The translations under genes were made by a program, and so were the position numbers. Below are positions 55,116 through 62,832 of a stretch of DNA of 64,000 nt, piece by piece. Source of the DNA: Acidimicrobiia bacterium (GTDB taxonomy: Bacteria; Actinomycetota; Acidimicrobiia; IMCC26256; PALSA-555). The DNA is taken from assembly GCA_040881685.1 (NCBI GenBank), contig JBBECS010000002.1:33415-97414 (forward strand), in the 5' to 3' direction. The notes beneath the pieces are model-generated. The model ran no database searches. It worked only from the letters and a program-made list of their open reading frames with translations, and was not told where the DNA came from. Every line of letters starts with the position of its first letter. Within the stretch, counting starts at the first letter, position 1.

Positions 55116-55703
55116 TCAGAGCCGGTTCCCGGGGTGGGTGATGAGGCTCATGGCCTCGGCCCGGGTGGCTGGGTTGGATTTGAACAGGCCGCGAACCGCC
55201 GACGTGACCGTGAGCGCGCCGGGCTTCTTCACTCCCCGCATCGACATGCAGAAATGCTCGGCCTCGATCATCACGAGCACGCCCTCGGGCTCGAGCACCT
55301 CCACTAGGGCGTCGGCGATCTGCGTGGTCAAGCGCTCCTGCACCTGCGGCCGGCGGGCAAAGCCGTCGACCAGCCTGGCGATCTTCGAGATGCCGGTGAT
55401 GCGACCGTCTGGCCCCGGGATGTACGCGACGTGCGCCTTCCCCGCGAACGGCACGAGGTGGTGTTCACAGTTGGAGAGCATCGCGATGTCGCGCACCATG
55501 ACCATCTCGTCATGGTCGGCCTCGAACGTGCAGGTCAGATGGTCAGCGGGGTTCTCGTGCAGGCCGCCGAAGATCTCCGCGTACATCGCGCCCATGCGCT
55601 CGGGAGTGCGCTGGAGCCCGTCACGGTCGGGATCCTCACCGATCGCGATCAGGATCTCGCGCACGGCCTTCTCGATCCGGGCGGTGTCGATGGGTTCGCT
55701 CAC
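55116..55703 (-). CDS. folE: GTP cyclohydrolase I
   Basis: 195 residues with the zinc ligands in [17 protein letters not shown] and [10 protein letters not shown], and the GTP-site block [20 protein letters not shown]. It makes dihydroneopterin triphosphate, the entry to folate. The GTG start overlaps the ftsH stop (GTGA). Confidence 0.96.
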
Positions 55704-57580
55704 GATGTTCCTCTCCGCGGTGGCACCGACGTCTCGCTGGCTGCGGCGCTCGATATCCGACCGAGCCCGCTCCCAGTAAAGGGTTGCACACCCTTGAACA
55801 GCTCCTGCACGCGTTCGAGCTCCAACGTCTCGTCGGCCACGAGCTCGGCCGCAAGGGACTCGAGCACGGGACGGTTCGCCTCGAGGATCTCGCGCGCAAC
55901 GCGGTGCGCGTCGTCGACGAGACGGCGGACCTCGGCGTCGATCTTCGCGGCCACCGATTCGGAGTAATCGGGCGTGGTGGTGAAGTCACGGCCGAGAAAG
56001 ACCTCACCGCGGGGTTGCCCGAAGCGCAACGGCCCCAGCTCCTCACTCATGCCGAACTCCGTGACCATCTGACGCGCCACGGTCGTGGCCCGGTCGATGT
56101 CGTTCTGTGCGCCCGTGGTCGGATCGGCGAAGATCATCTCCTCGGCCGTGCGCCCGCCCATGAGCATCGCGAGCTCGTCAACCAGCTCGCTCTTCGTCAC
56201 GAGGAATTTGTCCTCAGTGGGCAGCGTGAGCGTGTAGCCGAGCGCGCGGCCGCGGGGGATGATCGAGATCTTGTGCACAGGGTCGGAGTTCGGCAGTGCA
56301 TGGGCGACGAGTGCATGGCCACCCTCGTGATAGGCGATGACCCGACGCTCGCGCTCCGAGATGACGCGGCTCTTGCGTTCAGGGCCGGCGATCACGCGTT
56401 CGGTCGCGGCCTCGAGCTGCGGCAAACCGATGAGCTTGAGATCGTGGCGCGCCGAGAGCAGCGCGGCCTCGTTCATCAGGTTGGCAAGGTCGGCACCGGT
56501 GAATCCCGGAGTGCGGCGGGCGATCACGTCGAGATCGACGCCCTCGGCGATTTGCTTGCCCTTGGCGTGCACACACAGCACCGCCTTGCGGCCCTCGAGG
56601 TCGGGTCGGTCGACCACGATCTGTCGGTCGAACCGCCCCGGGCGCAAGAGCGCGGGATCGAGGATGTCGGGGCGGTTCGTGGACGCGAGCAGGATCACGC
56701 CGGTGCGTTGGTCGAATCCATCCATCTCCACGAGCAGCTGGTTGAGGGTCTGCTCGCGCTCGTCGTGACCACCGCCGAGCCCTGCCCCGCGGTGGCGCCC
56801 GACGGCATCGATCTCATCGACGAAGACGATGGCCGGTGCTGCCGCCTTTGCCTGTTCGAAGAGATCGCGCACGCGTGACGCGCCGACACCCACGAACATC
56901 TCGACGAAGTCGGAGCCGCTGATGGAGAAGAACGGCACCCCGGCCTCACCGGCGACGGCCCGGGCCAACAGCGTCTTGCCCGTGCCCGGCGGCCCGTAGA
57001 GCAGGACGCCTTTGGGGATCTTGGCGCCGATGTCACGGAACTTGTCCGGTGACTCGAGGAACTCCTCGATCTCCCGGAGCTCTTCGACCGCCTCGTTCAA
57101 GCCGGCTACGTCTGCGAACGTCACCTCGGGTTGGTCCTTGGCGAATGCCTTGGCGCGTGACTTGCCGAAGCTCATCACGCGTCCGCCGCCGTGGGACCGG
57201 TTCAGGAAGTACAGGAGGATCGCGATGAACAACACGACCGGGAGCACATCCAGGAGGATCCCGAGCAACGCGCTCTCCTGTTGACCCTCGACCTGGAACT
57301 CCCCGATGTCAGCGTCGATCAGCTGCTGGGTGATCCGGGACGTGTATCCACCAGGGAACCGAACCTCGAACTCGTTGCCGTTGCGCAGGTGGCCCTGGAT
57401 GGCGTGGTCACCGTCGAACAACGTCGCGTCGGCGATCGCTCCCTCGTCGAGGCGCGCGCCGAGCTCGCCCAGCGAGATCGGAGTCGGGCCGGGGTCCTTG
57501 GTGGCCGACAGCAAGACCACGCAGGCGGCGGTGACGGTAACGACGATCCCGACCAGGATGTTGCGGCGGCGCTTGGTCAC
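55700..57580 (-). CDS. ftsH: ATP-dependent zinc metalloprotease FtsH
   Basis: About 626 residues from the GTG at 57580 ([11 protein letters not shown]). An N-terminal membrane segment, an outer domain of about 80 residues and a second segment ([17 protein letters not shown]) are followed by the AAA domain ([37 protein letters not shown]) and the protease ([15 protein letters not shown]). It degrades membrane and regulatory proteins. The frame stays open upstream to 57697, but that part overlaps hpt and lacks family match. Confidence 0.95.
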
Positions 57581-57617
57581 GAGCGAATCAGGTTCGCCGC
57601 GCGGTTCAACACCAGGC

Positions 57618-58163
57618 TCATTGGGGTACGCGCCCGGTGTACTCGTACACCGCGGGCAGGTTGCGGTAGCGCTCGCCGACGTCCAACCCGTAACCAACGA
57701 CGAAGTCGGGCGGGATGTTGAACCCGACGTAGCGAAGATCGAGGTCGGCCTTCTGGAGACCTTCCTTTACGAGCAGCGCACACACCTCGAGCGAGCGCGG
57801 GCCGCGCGCCGCGAGATTCCGGCGCAGATACGCGAGCGTGAGACCGGAGTCGACGATGTCCTCGACGACGAGCACGTCGCGCTCGGTGAGGTCGAGGTCC
57901 AGGTCCTTCAGGATCCGGACCACGCCGCTGGTGCGCGTGGCTGACCCGTATGACGAGACCGCCATGAAGTCGAACTCCACCGGGCGCTCGATGGCGCGCG
58001 ACAGGTCGCTCATGAACATGAACGCACCCTTGAGGACTCCGATGAGCAACGGTGCACGATCGGCGTAGTCGGCGGTGATCTCCTTGCCGAGCTCCCTCAC
58101 ACGCTCTTGGAGCACATCCTCGGGGACGACGATCTTCCCGAGGTTCGGATCCGGTCCGTCCAC
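57618..58163 (-). CDS. hpt: Hypoxanthine phosphoribosyltransferase
   Basis: 181 residues. VLVVEDIVDSGLTLAYL is the PRPP loop, LIGVLKGAFMFMSDLSR the N-terminal block, and NIPPDFVVGYGLDVGERYRN the base-binding end. It salvages hypoxanthine and guanine. The tilS-hpt-ftsH order is widespread in bacteria. Confidence 0.96.
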   Translation of the reverse strand: MDGPDPNLGKIVVPEDVLQERVRELGKEITADYADRAPLLIGVLKGAFMFMSDLSRAIERPVEFDFMAVSSYGSATRTSGVVRILKDLDLDLTERDVLVVEDIVDSGLTLAYLRRNLAARGPRSLEVCALLVKEGLQKADLDLRYVGFNIPPDFVVGYGLDVGERYRNLPAVYEYTGRVPQ

Positions 58164-58172
58164 GGTCAGAAC

Positions 58173-59096
58173 CTATCGCCGGTCTTCGGCGTAGAGGCAT
58201 CCCCCGGTTCGCCAGACGCGACGCCCGCCGGCGACTTCGGTCGCGCGTGCCTCCCCGCGCGCGACGTCGAGCACGCGCTCCACCTCGTCGAGCGAGGGCG
58301 GCGGCGGGCCGAGCCACAGCCGAACCGCCCGGCGCGCCAGAACCGCGGGCATCTCGGCGAGGGGACGCGCCGGACGCGCGCCATCGGCCGGCCAGGCCGC
58401 TCGGGCGAGCGTGTCGAGGTAGTCGGACTCGTCGCGGAGGATCGCGGCTTGCCGAGCCAGCACTGGCACGAGATCACGGGCTGCGCCGGCGGACAGCGCC
58501 GGGAGGATCTCGTGGCGGATCCAGTTCCGGCGCAGCGAGACATCGTCGTTCGACGGGTCGCGCACGGGCTCCAAGCCGAGCACCCCGCACAGCCCCTCGG
58601 TCTCCGAGCGGCGGATCTCGAGCAACGGCCGCACGATCCGATCGCGCTGCACCGGCATCGCGCCAAGGCCGGCCGACGCACTCCCGCGCAGCACGTTGAG
58701 CAAGACGGTCTCGGCCTGATCATCGGCCGTGTGCCCGACGAGGATTGCCGACGCATCGAGTTCATCACGCGCGCGTTCGAGGGCTTCGTACCGGGCGGCG
58801 CGCGCGCGGGCCTCGTAGTTCGGCCCCCGTTGCACATCGACCTGCTCGACTCGAAACGCCACGCCGAGGCGCGCCGCGTGAGCTTCGACCGCCGTTGCGT
58901 CAGCATCGCTGCCGGGTCGTGAGCCGTGGTCGACGTGGACTGCAACGGGGTTCAACGCGGCTGCGTTCGCCAGCACGAGGAGGGCCAGCGAGTCGGGCCC
59001 GCCCGAGCATCCGACGACGACGGGCGCGCTTACGTGGCGCAGCCCCAGCAGTCGCTCGACCAACGCGTCGACTTCGGCGGTGCCAACGGTGTGCAT
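58173..59096 (-). CDS. tilS: tRNA(Ile)-lysidine synthetase
   Basis: 307 residues. The PP-loop VGCSGGPDSLALLVLANAA, the HVDHGSRPGSDADATA segment and ILVGHTADDQAETVLLNVLRG are signatures of TilS, which converts C34 of a tRNA-Ile to lysidine. The C-terminal part is short, as in many actinobacteria. The ATG at 59096 is chosen, clear of the upstream metalloprotease stop at 59105. Confidence 0.95.
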   Translation of the reverse strand: MHTVGTAEVDALVERLLGLRHVSAPVVVGCSGGPDSLALLVLANAAALNPVAVHVDHGSRPGSDADATAVEAHAARLGVAFRVEQVDVQRGPNYEARARAARYEALERARDELDASAILVGHTADDQAETVLLNVLRGSASAGLGAMPVQRDRIVRPLLEIRRSETEGLCGVLGLEPVRDPSNDDVSLRRNWIRHEILPALSAGAARDLVPVLARQAAILRDESDYLDTLARAAWPADGARPARPLAEMPAVLARRAVRLWLGPPPPSLDEVERVLDVARGEARATEVAGGRRVWRTGGCLYAEDRR

Positions 59097-59104
59097 CGGG
59101 AAGC

Positions 59105-60184
59105 TCAGGCGACGCGCGTCAACCAGGCGGACGGCGTCGTGAGCTCGTCGAGGGTCGGCAGACACTCCGGCCCGCGCCAGGCCGCGTCCAGCGCGCGCGG
59201 CCCGCCCTCGAGCTCGACAGCCTCAACGAACGCCTCACCCACCTCGTACTGACGCATCTTCGTCTCGAGTCCGAGCGCCTTGTAGACGACGCCGGTGAGT
59301 CCTTGCGTGCGCCGACGAGACTGCAGCACGTATGCCATGCGCTCCTGGCCGTCGACGTGGGCCCGCCCTAGCTCGTTCATGACGCGGTTGCCGTGCCCTT
59401 CGAGCACGGACATGAGCGCCTGCACGCGCCCCAACACGCCGCGGTGCTCGTCGGTTGCCAGGAGCCCGACGATGCCCCCCTCGTCGAAGGGGTTCCGACC
59501 GTGGCGGAGCTCGTCGACCGCTCGGAGCAAGGCCCGCACGAGATGCTTCGGATCGGCGTCCACGCTTCCGAGTGCTTGGTTGACCAGGTCGAGGAAGTAG
59601 TCGCGCATCCACGGAACCGCGGTGAACTGCGCCCGGTGCGTCACCTCGTGGATTGCGATCCAGAGTCGGAACTCGCGAGGCCGGAAGGCGAAGCGCTTCT
59701 CCAGCGCGAGCACGTTCGAACCGACGTAGTAGACCGCATCGTCGGTGGGCGCGCCGTCGTCGTCGGGCACGAGCAGGTCGTACTGGCCGAGCACCCGCTG
59801 CGCGAACCAACCGAGCAGCACGCCAAGCTCGGTGGCGGCCACACGACGTCCGACACCGCCGACCGGTGAGCTCAGCATGCGCTCACCGACGCGCGCGGTG
59901 AGTGGCCCGAGGAGGCGCCGCATCGAGGAGACGTTGGCGTCCACCCAGCCTTGGCGGTCGACGACCTCCGCGCGCGCGACGCCGCTGGCGCGCAGACCCG
60001 TGTGATCGGCGACGAGCGCCTCGGCACGCGCGGTAACGGCCGTGAAGTCGTCGGTGAGCGATGCGGCGAGGTACGAGTCGCCGAGCGGATCGCGCCCAGC
60101 GACGCGACGGGCGACGCGTGCCGCCAGCGCCCAGTCGACCGCGTCGGTGGTCGACGGTGGGGCGGCGAGTGCCGGCGCGGTCAC
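59105..60184 (-). CDS. DUF2342 zinc metalloprotease-like protein (F420 biosynthesis-associated family)
   Basis: About 359 residues. The zincin motif HEVTH lies in LWIAIHEVTHRAQF, followed by a Glu-containing helix (FVEAVELEGG) in the C-terminal third. The family is found next to tilS across F420-producing actinobacteria and is often annotated as coenzyme-F420-associated; its substrate is not known. The GTG at 60184 overlaps the stop of the small membrane protein (GTGA), which fixes the start. Confidence 0.88.
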   Translation of the reverse strand: MTAPALAAPPSTTDAVDWALAARVARRVAGRDPLGDSYLAASLTDDFTAVTARAEALVADHTGLRASGVARAEVVDRQGWVDANVSSMRRLLGPLTARVGERMLSSPVGGVGRRVAATELGVLLGWFAQRVLGQYDLLVPDDDGAPTDDAVYYVGSNVLALEKRFAFRPREFRLWIAIHEVTHRAQFTAVPWMRDYFLDLVNQALGSVDADPKHLVRALLRAVDELRHGRNPFDEGGIVGLLATDEHRGVLGRVQALMSVLEGHGNRVMNELGRAHVDGQERMAYVLQSRRRTQGLTGVVYKALGLETKMRQYEVGEAFVEAVELEGGPRALDAAWRGPECLPTLDELTTPSAWLTRVA

Positions 60185-60327
60185 TCGACCCGCCGGCCCC
60201 GGTACTTCGGCAGCATGATCTTGCGGACGTAGCCGACGCACAACGAGAGGACCATGAGGAGGAAGCCGCCTGCGAGAAAGAAGGAGAGCCAGTAGAACCA
60301 CTTGAACTGGTCGTCGGCGAAGATCAC
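60181..60327 (-). CDS. 48-residue membrane protein between anti-sigma factor and metalloprotease
   Basis: A small frame not long enough for most gene callers: MIFADDQFKWFYWLSFFLAG begins it, GGFLLMVLSLCVGYVRKIM continues the single membrane segment, and LPKYRGRRVE is a basic cytoplasmic end. AGGAGG lies seven bases before the GTG at 60327. Its start overlaps the anti-sigma stop (GTGA) and its stop overlaps the DUF2342 start (GTGA), so it is coupled on both sides. I know no family. Membrane-bound position next to a zincin suggests a partner or anchor for it, which is inference. Confidence 0.75.
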   Translation of the reverse strand: MIFADDQFKWFYWLSFFLAGGFLLMVLSLCVGYVRKIMLPKYRGRRVE

Positions 60328-60626
60328 TGCGCTTCCTCCTGTTCTGGTCGACTCCGCTGCGCGCTCCCGGCCGTCCGGCCAGCGCTGCGCTGCGTCTCCC
60401 CCTGCTCGCAGCCTAGGGCGCCCGCGATTCGGCGCCGGAGATCATCGGGCATCGCGTCGCGACATCGCGTCGCGATGACCTGGCGGAACTCGACCTCGTA
60501 CACGAAGCCATCCGCGCACGGTGGACATCGCTGAATGTGGCGTCGGATCGTCCAACGTCGCCAGATGGCCAGCTCACCGTCGAGGTAATGGTGCATGCGG
60601 TACGAGGCCTTGTCGCAGTCCATCAC
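60324..60626 (-). CDS. Zinc-binding anti-sigma factor (RsrA-like)
   Basis: 100 residues. The ZAS pattern is visible: an early Cys (MMDCDKAS), YLDGELAIWRRW, then HIQRCPPCADGF with H-x3-C-x2-C, and a later Cys in IATRCRDAM. It should hold the sigma factor encoded just upstream and let go of it on thiol oxidation. The last 30 residues (GETQRSAGRTAGSAQRSRP) are encoded by a copy of repeat B and look like a recent addition. Confidence 0.88.
   Translation of the reverse strand: MMDCDKASYRMHHYLDGELAIWRRWTIRRHIQRCPPCADGFVYEVEFRQVIATRCRDAMPDDLRRRIAGALGCEQGETQRSAGRTAGSAQRSRPEQEEAQ
60342..60413 (+). repeat. Interspersed repeat B, in the anti-sigma gene end
   Basis: TTCTGGTCGACTCCGCTGCG and GCGTCTCCCCCTGCTCGCAG match the CTGGTCGACTCCGC and CGTCTCC core of the family, with a GGCCGTCCGGCC hairpin between. 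It is shorter and less complete than the copies at 27591 and 44182. Confidence 0.45.
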
Positions 60627-60636
60627 CGCTTCTCCG

Positions 60637-61224
60637 TCACGCGCTGGTGTTGACGGGCTCGGTCTTCGGGAGCAGCCCTCGATCGCGGGCGAAATCCCAC
60701 AACCGCTGCTGGAGCTGCTTTCTTCCGCGATGGAGACGGCTCATGACCGTGCCGATCGGCACGTCCATGATGTCGGCGATCTCCTTGTACGAGAAGCCCT
60801 CGACATCGGCGAGCAGGACCGCGATGCGGAACTGCTCCGGCAGCGACTCGAGCGCCTCCTTCACGATCTCATCGGGCATCGACTCGAGCACTTCGGTCTC
60901 GGGCGTGCGCTCCGCGTTGGCGGCCTCGATCCCGCCCATCCGTCCGTAGATCGAGTACTCCTCGACGTCGTCGAACTCGGTCTCTTCGGGCCGGCGCTTC
61001 TTGGCGCGGTACGTGTTGATGAACGTGTTGGTGAGGATCTTGTAGAGCCACGCCTTGAGATTGGTGCCTTCCTTGAAGCCACCAAACCCCCGGTACGCGC
61101 GCAGGTACGTCTCCTGGACGACGTCTTCGGCGTCGGAAGGATTGCGCGTCATCCGGAGCGCGGCCGAGTAGAGCGCATCCATGTAGGGCATCGCGAGCTC
61201 GGCGAAGCGCGCCTGGTCGGCCAT
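60637..61224 (-). CDS. sigH: ECF sigma factor, SigH/SigR type
   Basis: 195 residues. Region 2 holds [20 protein letters not shown] and [12 protein letters not shown], region 4 [20 protein letters not shown] and [40 protein letters not shown] is typical of the SigH/SigR (thiol-oxidative stress) group. The RsrA-like gene follows 10 bases on. I do not see the GGAAT-N18-GTT self-promoter upstream, so autoregulation is not evident. Confidence 0.92.
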
Positions 61225-61281
61225 GAGGCCGAGCGTACCGGACCCTTACGACAGCACTGGCAAAGAAAGGTGTGGCCGCTC

Positions 61282-62523
61282 TCAGGTGCGCCCGAGCACC
61301 AGCACAGCGTTGTGGCCGCCGAAGGCGAACGAGTTCGACACCACAACACCCTCACCCAGCGCTCGGGGCTCGGCCACCACGTCCAGATCGATCGCCGGGT
61401 CCGGCGTCTCGTAGTTGGCCGTCGGCGGGATCGTGCCGTGCTCGAGCGTCAGCACGCTGGCAACCGCCTCGACGGCACCTGCGGCGCCGATCGAGTGCCC
61501 AAGCACGCCCTTGACCGACGTGACGGGCGGCCCGTCGTTCCCGAACACAGCCCGGATGGCCGCAGCCTCCGCGACATCGTTGTGGACGGTCGACGTGCCG
61601 TGCGCGTTCACGTGCGCAACGTCGGCGGCGGTGAGGCCGGCGTCGGTAAGTGCCAGACGGATGCAGTCGCGCGCGCCGCGGCCGTCGGGCGGGGGCGCCA
61701 CCAGGTGGAAGGCGTCGGTGTTGCGCGCGTACCCGAGCAGCTCGGCACGGACCCGCGCCCCCCGCGCCTGCGCATCCGACCGGCGCTCGAGAACCAAGGC
61801 AGCCGCGCCCTCGGCGATCACGAATCCGTCCCTGGCTTGATCGAACGGGCGCGACGCCGCCGTCGGGTCGTCGCTGCGTTCCGAGAGGGCGTGGGCTGCA
61901 GCAAACGCGGCCATCACCCAAGGGGTGAGGGGTGCCTCGGCGCCGACAGCGATCACCGCGTCGGCGCTGCCTTCCCGCAGGAGCCTCATGCCCTCACCGA
62001 CGGCGTTCGCGCCGGCCGCGCACGCGGTGGAGATCGTGAGGCAAGGTCCCCGGAAGTCGCGCCGCATCGCGATCAGCGCCGAGCCGGCGTTGGGCATCGC
62101 CATCGGCACGAACAACGGGTTCATCCGGCCCTTCGCACTCCCCGGTTCGACCCCGAGGAATGCTCGGGCGCCGCTGTCGGCCGTCTCCAGTCCTCCGAAC
62201 CCGGTACCCACGACGGTCGCGACGCGATCGGCGTCCACCGATGGCGAGCCCGCATCTCGCAACGCGTCCTCCGCGGCAACGATCGCAAGCTGCGTGTTTC
62301 GGTCGCTTCGTCGAACGTCTTTCTCGGACAGCGTGGGCTTGGGGTCGAAGTCGCATTCGCATCCGAAGCGGATCGGTGACTCCGAAACGTCGACGTGCTG
62401 CACGTTGCGCGCAACGGAACGACCGGCGACCAGTGCGGCCCAGAATTCGTCCAACGAGCAACCGGCGGGTGTGACCACGCCGAGGCCGGTCACCGCGATT
62501 GCGTGCCCACTGTGTCCCGCCAT
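61282..62523 (-). CDS. fabF: 3-oxoacyl-ACP synthase II
   Basis: 413 residues of thiolase fold. The catalytic Cys is in TISTACAAGANAVG, the two His residues in VNAHGTSTVHNDVAE and KGVLGHSIGAAGA, with SFAFGGHNAVLVLG at the end. It extends acyl-ACP chains. The ATG at 62523 begins the fold (AIAVTGLGVVTPAG); the frame is open far upstream but there it covers the divergent acyl carrier gene. It may serve a secondary lipid pathway, since it pairs with a stand-alone carrier protein and no other fab genes. Confidence 0.9.
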   Translation of the reverse strand: MAGHSGHAIAVTGLGVVTPAGCSLDEFWAALVAGRSVARNVQHVDVSESPIRFGCECDFDPKPTLSEKDVRRSDRNTQLAIVAAEDALRDAGSPSVDADRVATVVGTGFGGLETADSGARAFLGVEPGSAKGRMNPLFVPMAMPNAGSALIAMRRDFRGPCLTISTACAAGANAVGEGMRLLREGSADAVIAVGAEAPLTPWVMAAFAAAHALSERSDDPTAASRPFDQARDGFVIAEGAAALVLERRSDAQARGARVRAELLGYARNTDAFHLVAPPPDGRGARDCIRLALTDAGLTAADVAHVNAHGTSTVHNDVAEAAAIRAVFGNDGPPVTSVKGVLGHSIGAAGAVEAVASVLTLEHGTIPPTANYETPDPAIDLDVVAEPRALGEGVVVSNSFAFGGHNAVLVLGRT

Positions 62524-62586
62524 CGGCAGGACCGTATTAGATTTCGCGCGGTCCACTTCCGTCTCTGGGCTGGGAGGCCGAGCGGC

Positions 62587-62832
62587 ATGGCGTTCCCTTC
62601 GCTCGACCATGTCCTCGATCAGCTGCGCGCGATCGTCGAAGACGACAGCGTGGGCGCAGACTCCAAGATCGCCGACCTCGGCGTCGATTCGCTCGACGTG
62701 TTGGAGTGGGTGTTCGAGATCGAGGGCGCCGCTGACATCACGGTCGACGAATCGCTGTACGAGCCGGAGATCCTCGAGACCGCGACGGTCCGCGAGGTCT
62801 ACGAGCGCATCAAGCAGGCCGCGTCGGCATAG
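62587..62832 (+). CDS. Acyl carrier protein
   Basis: 81 residues. The phosphopantetheine Ser is in LGVDSLDVLEWVFEIE, and the acidic helix around it and the end TVREVYERIKQA are typical of ACP. The ATG at 62587 is chosen; the upstream open frame is antisense to fabF. It is divergent from the fabF gene, 63 bases apart, which likely share a promoter region with A/T-rich parts (TATTAGAT). Confidence 0.85.
   Translation: MAFPSLDHVLDQLRAIVEDDSVGADSKIADLGVDSLDVLEWVFEIEGAADITVDESLYEPEILETATVREVYERIKQAASA

Follow-up and report, generated by a model that had tools for sequence, protein, structure and literature searches.

A short open reading frame in the analysed DNA (hereafter the window, the whole stretch of 64,000 nucleotides from an Acidimicrobiia bacterium) is a genuine gene for a small membrane protein. 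As far as can be told from sequence, it is the shortest form of a family of one-helix membrane proteins found in many actinobacteria. We consider it nearly certain that the gene is real and, jointly, that its anatomy is as given here. The gene and its neighbours in the window are as follows.

60637..61224, minus strand, SigH/SigR-like ECF sigma factor (TIGR02947, 256.6 bits, over the cut-off of 251.55)
60324..60626, minus strand, anti-sigma factor, RsrA-like, with the zf-HC2 domain recognised (HIQRCPPC)
60343..60399, no strand assigned, dispersed palindrome of about 57 bp, read in frame as part of the anti-sigma 3′ end
60335..60340, minus strand, AGGAGG, Shine-Dalgarno-like site of the small gene, 7 nt 5′ of its GTG start
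60181..60327, minus strand, small membrane-protein gene; W-aromatic motif, one TM helix and a basic C-tail, no signal peptide
59105..60184, minus strand, zincin (Zincin_2/TIGR03883) with HEVTH from residue 179 (PF10103 259.8 bits, TIGR03883 312.7 bits)
58173..59165, minus strand, tilS, tRNA(Ile)-lysidine synthetase; the start may be 59165 or 59096
57618..58163, minus strand, hpt, phosphoribosyltransferase
55700..57697, minus strand, ftsH-like AAA/M41 protease

The small frame reads on the minus strand from a GTG start at 60327 to a TGA stop at 60181 and its product has 48 aa. The ribosome binding site described in the first-pass annotation is present, and so are the GTGA overlaps at both ends: the start of the small gene and the stop of the anti-sigma gene share 60327-60324, and its stop and the start of the zincin gene share 60184-60181. 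The protein contains a single hydrophobic stretch with a highest 19-residue Kyte-Doolittle mean of 2.26, and the structure predicted for the protein alone is one helix covering residues 2-38 (mean pLDDT 83). The part before the helix has a charge of -1 and the part after it a charge of +5. Based on the positive-inside rule and on the signal peptides of relatives, the protein is predicted to be single-pass with the N-terminus outside and the C-terminus inside.

Among the neighbours, the zincin carries the HExxH motif and passes the family cut-offs for both Zincin_2 and TIGR03883. It had been called membrane-near, but its sequence contains no membrane segment (highest 19-residue hydropathy mean 1.14). 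Of the two upstream genes, which had been described as a thiol-stress pair, the sigma factor passes the SigH_actino cut-off, but the anti-sigma factor reaches only 56.8 bits against TIGR03988 (RsrA), under the cut-off of 62.5. Beside the sigma gene, translations of 61282-62832 inspected by eye show a ketoacyl-synthase-like frame on the minus strand and a divergent short acyl-carrier-like frame on the plus strand. The palindromic repeat lies in frame within the anti-sigma gene and so adds codons to the protein. We counted 24 matches to it at E ≤ 1e-3 in the window's own genome and 26 (G001), 10 and 4 matches in three members of the genus. It occupies the same site in L004, and L003 and L006 are without it there.

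A short frame in a GC-rich genome may be open by chance, and the purifying signal on this one is mild. The dN/dS was below 1 in all ten pairs of the close relatives L001, L002, L003, L004 and L006, with P ≤ 0.05 against random change in five of them; in the five pairs with L005 it was significant throughout, with synonymous sites saturated. What speaks against chance is the conservation in place. Starting from the zincin in named Acidimicrobiia genomes, we fetched 80 loci and used the 77 with at least 400 nt upstream, which are partly the same genomes as our earlier samples of relatives. The small gene was found upstream in 75 of these 77 loci at E ≤ 1e-3, but the controls (antisense, inside the zincin and on the zincin reverse strand) gave 0/77 each. 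Homologues in place at so many loci, together with empty controls, refute a chance open frame, which we regard as practically out of the question. The two loci with no small gene upstream of the zincin in this search were L221 and L227; one of the 75 matches, L260, has no W (see below) and was left out of the promoter listing. At E ≤ 1, a tblastn search with the 48 aa hit 37 of 41 relatives, representing 23 of 26 genera, and the matches keep the gene order of the window. The comparison with related genomes proposed in the first-pass annotation thus found the frame conserved at the same place and, with the one hydrophobic helix, bore out its reading as a genuine small membrane-protein gene.

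In alignments of 30, 48 and 37 members the W is invariant, a Y and a V are near-invariant and the tail is basic. The W marks the outer helix end and the Y and V the inner one, followed by the basic tail, and the TM segment itself is poorly conserved. The window protein shows all of these traits (W-aromatic motif, TM helix, inner-end Y and V, basic tail), and its gene lies directly upstream of the zincin and then tilS, matching the position of the family before [zincin-]tilS. A core profile of 30 rows matched 150 of 295 class genomes at E ≤ 0.1, the weakest of these matches being likely due to chance. A 37-row profile that takes in members of greater divergence found 81 of 396 phylum genomes at E ≤ 0.01, and a second such profile matched 66 of 396 at E ≤ 0.001, of which 42 are in the class and 24 outside. 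Fourteen weak matches of the first 37-row profile outside the class were checked by their place, a check that covers 14 of the 24 non-class genomes of the second profile. In 12 of them the match immediately precedes zincin and tilS, the two others being L169 and L172. Within the class, gaps at first taken as gene-free often carry a longer version of the small gene. In L116, L119 and L121 the small gene was not found in the gap between the sigma/anti-sigma pair and the zincin. The gap is filled instead by a small cysteine-rich frame (around 866-1501, 1221-1498 and 1044-1510, respectively) with the pattern RVC..PGC.T.LSIYN...CY.H.P, which is possibly zinc-binding.

No Pfam or NCBIfam family matched the 48-aa protein over its curated cut-off, and 29 family members searched against the same databases gave scattered weak matches, none shared by more than two members. 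A profile search for a known PDB fold returned aquaporin-like chance matches only (best E 0.12), and no paper on such a protein was found in the open-licence text of PubMed Central. The family of one-helix bitopic membrane proteins is apparently undescribed so far, although bitopic small proteins are a familiar kind.

Most relatives have a longer small protein than the window. In many, a signal peptide at the N-terminus precedes the W motif, and members from other orders and families have an acidic or Pro/Thr-rich linker added. The window form has no signal peptide, and membership in the family does not require one. It begins approximately where the mature chain begins in the sister genus (L007, L011), and by this comparison its 48 residues correspond to the mature part only. 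To place the changes we used a zincin tree of 76 rows, taken from 98 typed loci of which 20 had no zincin match and two had a zincin match that was too short. The signal-peptide label needs a minimum of four changes on this tree, and well-supported branches force at least three. All outgroup rows and the early-branching class rows have the signal peptide. Because every outgroup row carries one, loss is the simpler direction, and the signal peptide would have been present ancestrally and lost repeatedly, in about three separate events or more. One loss falls in a clade of 22 class rows and another in L017, and the window's family accounts for one or two. Cleavage sites were assigned only by eye and hydropathy; the N-terminal hydrophobic stretch of L026, L055 and L076 may not be a cleaved signal, and L047 and L050 were set to signal peptide by hand owing to their lipobox-like ends. 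Such a cysteine end (for example TGC or SGC) stands in place of an AxA signal peptidase site in four members of family f12 (L027, L030, L047 and L050), in which the mature protein may be a lipoprotein.

The promoter pattern suggests where transcription of the gene begins. In the class outside the window's order, TANNNT lies 6-9 nt before the start of all 37 short-form genes, with almost no further TANNNT in the 60 nt upstream, and in signal-peptide forms it is found at the signal-peptide start in 10 of 11. Other genes of the same loci, counted only where the match began near the gene start, fall into two groups: anti-sigma (0/18), zincin (0/14) and tilS (0/31) lack it at their starts, but sigma (18/27) and hpt (8/11) often have it. 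In the zincin-anchored promoter listing, which mixes the window's order (mostly without the box) with the rest of the class, TANNNT lies 5-9 nt before some start in 42 of 74 loci. In Mycobacterium smegmatis, TANNNT is the preferred housekeeping -10 element, and leaderless mRNAs make up about a quarter of the transcripts (PMC6448022). The spacing observed here fits the -10 box of a leaderless mRNA, which argues for a promoter of the small gene's own. At -27 to -25 we noticed a weak G/A/T preference. TTGACA-like matches were only somewhat above shuffled sequences, so a specific -35 element is not claimed.

Three elements of this type were located in the window.

61232..61237, minus strand, TACGCT, 7 nt ahead of the sigma start codon, candidate promoter for a leaderless sigma/anti-sigma mRNA
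60410..60415, minus strand, TAGGCT, -10-like element 82 nt before the small-gene start, the TANNNT nearest to it in the window
58170..58175, minus strand, TAGGTT, candidate leaderless promoter of hpt, 6 nt before its start codon

The small gene of the window has no TANNNT at the leaderless position (5-9 nt before the start) and has the Shine-Dalgarno site instead. The situation is similar in most members of the window's order, where TANNNT, often TACGAT, is placed further upstream, often with a Shine-Dalgarno site in between. TAGGCT is present also in the three other genus members and lies 19 nt before the small-gene start in L003; the palindromic repeat lengthens the distance from TAGGCT to the start. 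From the pattern at sigma, small gene and hpt, we infer three units: sigma with anti-sigma, then small-zincin-tilS, and a third that begins at hpt. In the relatives within the class the small gene very probably starts its own transcription unit, and the extent of that unit as small-zincin-tilS is likely.

Downstream, tilS was found in 65 of 68 testable loci (10/12 in the order, 41/42 elsewhere in the class and 14/14 outside it), and the three loci with no tilS match are short stretches ending soon after the zincin. Between the small gene and tilS, the TIGR03883 zincin is absent at 15 of 48 class loci and, within the order, at 4 of 34 testable ones, and all 16 tested zincin-loss genomes (families f20 and f11), which have only a lower-scoring zincin paralogue and none over the cut-off, keep the small gene. 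We therefore rejected the zincin as a strict partner, and as the small gene is itself missing in some loci, no single partner appears to be obligatory. One locus of the collection (L184) comes from contig CAMDCC010000009.1, titled Bifidobacterium breve. Its zincin is 86% identical to that of the window, the genes of the locus are arranged as in the window's genus, and the title looks wrong.

The first-pass annotation saw in the small frame a link between a thiol-stress sigma/anti-sigma pair and the zincin, which would make the protein part of a thiol-stress module. The GTGA overlaps and the Shine-Dalgarno site in the window agree with this, and so does the place of the anti-sigma gene, which precedes the small gene in 31 of 36 loci within the order and in 37 of 48 from the rest of the class. 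However, this adjacency was seen only within the class: in other families of the phylum, none of the 12 testable loci had sigma or anti-sigma upstream. Among 30 loci, the 4-nt overlap with the anti-sigma gene (GTGA or ATGA) occurs only in the four genus members and in L017, and it is best read as a recent, local feature at the level of the genus. Moreover, 7 of the 12 tested genomes retain the small gene with no SigH-like factor anywhere in the genome (SigH-like scores of at most 105 bits, compared with more than 235 bits in the other five), although most are drafts and single absences are weak. The sigma factor was rejected as a strict partner on these grounds. With the own promoter of the small gene elsewhere in the class, the retention of the gene after loss of the SigH-like factor or of the zincin, and an anti-sigma factor scoring below the RsrA cut-off, neither the coupling nor the link to thiol stress found support, and we regard this explanation as quite unlikely. 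The promoter evidence corrects the tempting reading of the locus as one operon leading from a stress sigma factor to a protease.

As the overall best explanation we tentatively propose, based on gene order, promoters and conserved residues, that the protein acts constitutively at the membrane as an accessory of its own unit small-zincin-tilS. Under this proposal the small bitopic protein, with N-terminus outside and C-terminus inside, would be a reduced form of an older precursor with a cleavable signal peptide. Its gene would be the first in a housekeeping unit, transcribed elsewhere in the class as a leaderless mRNA from its own promoter, and the basic, aromatic cytosolic tail would hold or dock a partner at the membrane, be it TilS, the zincin or something else. 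Against this count the mild selection, the poorly conserved TM segment, the fact that no family, fold or paper found points to a function, the lack of an obligatory partner and, in the window's genus, a promoter away from the leaderless position. A docking or accessory role directed specifically at the unit products TilS or zincin is possible but doubtful. Unlikely, in our view, is the still more specific version in which the family, spread over several lineages of the phylum, docks tRNA(Ile)-lysidine synthetase to the membrane, the zincin joining as a third component in some cases, and in which the protein, in the several lineages that lost the signal peptide, is inserted from a start near the old cleavage site. 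The protein may just as well be one subunit of some membrane complex (e.g. respiratory or envelope) that has nothing to do with the neighbours, with the gene order reflecting a stable housekeeping neighbourhood; we hold this to be as doubtful as docking to TilS or zincin. Its independence of the zincin and of the sigma pair would suit such a subunit, and the conserved interface W, inner Y/V and basic tail are as in small TM subunits, but the position before [zincin-]tilS is strongly kept across families of the phylum.

Other explanations have a lower probability than docking or an unrelated complex, the thiol-stress link among them. The frame is small, first in its unit and often near the zincin start, as would suit a leader peptide whose translation controls zincin and tilS and whose product is itself unimportant. 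We consider this very unlikely, as the W, Y, V and basic residues and the signal peptides are conserved in diverse relatives, and translational coupling does not need a membrane protein with a signal peptide. Modulation of the membrane protease FtsH, whose gene follows further downstream in the same gene run, both in the window and in several relatives, is also quite improbable. As noted, hpt appears to open its own unit, with a leaderless box before it both in the window and in 8 of the 11 relatives counted, and in the zincin-less loci L061, L064, L067 and L071, which have long flanks, no hpt match lies beside tilS (ftsH was not queried).

Several known systems resemble parts of the locus. 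In Firmicutes, the gene for the bitopic membrane protein DivIC sits upstream of tilS-hpt-ftsH, and the likeness consists of a bitopic membrane-protein gene just upstream of tilS. However, DivIC has a coiled-coil outside and a topology opposite to that predicted for the small protein, in which nothing like this coiled-coil is seen. The SigH/SigR-RsrA pair (TIGR02947, TIGR03988) is represented by the upstream neighbours in the class, but it forms a separate transcription unit according to the promoter pattern and is dispensable to the small gene. The TIGR03883 DUF2342_F420 zincin is the immediate downstream neighbour in most loci but a different protein. In size and single membrane helix the small protein is like small bitopic membrane regulators such as MgrB (47 aa; PMC8404706). 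It differs from MgrB by its predicted outside N-terminus, the basic cytosolic C-tail, signal peptides in relatives and no sensor kinase nearby, and no sequence relation is expected.

A frame that is easily dropped from annotation is thus a conserved gene across the class and beyond, and an apparently undescribed family comes with a clear candidate partner to test, TilS or the zincin. If docking of TilS is true, a step of tRNA modification would be done or controlled at the membrane. The natural series of signal-peptide losses would be useful for studying how proteins with an outside N-terminus are inserted into the membrane without a signal peptide. Leaderless starts may be common in the class, and they could serve to map transcription units from sequence.
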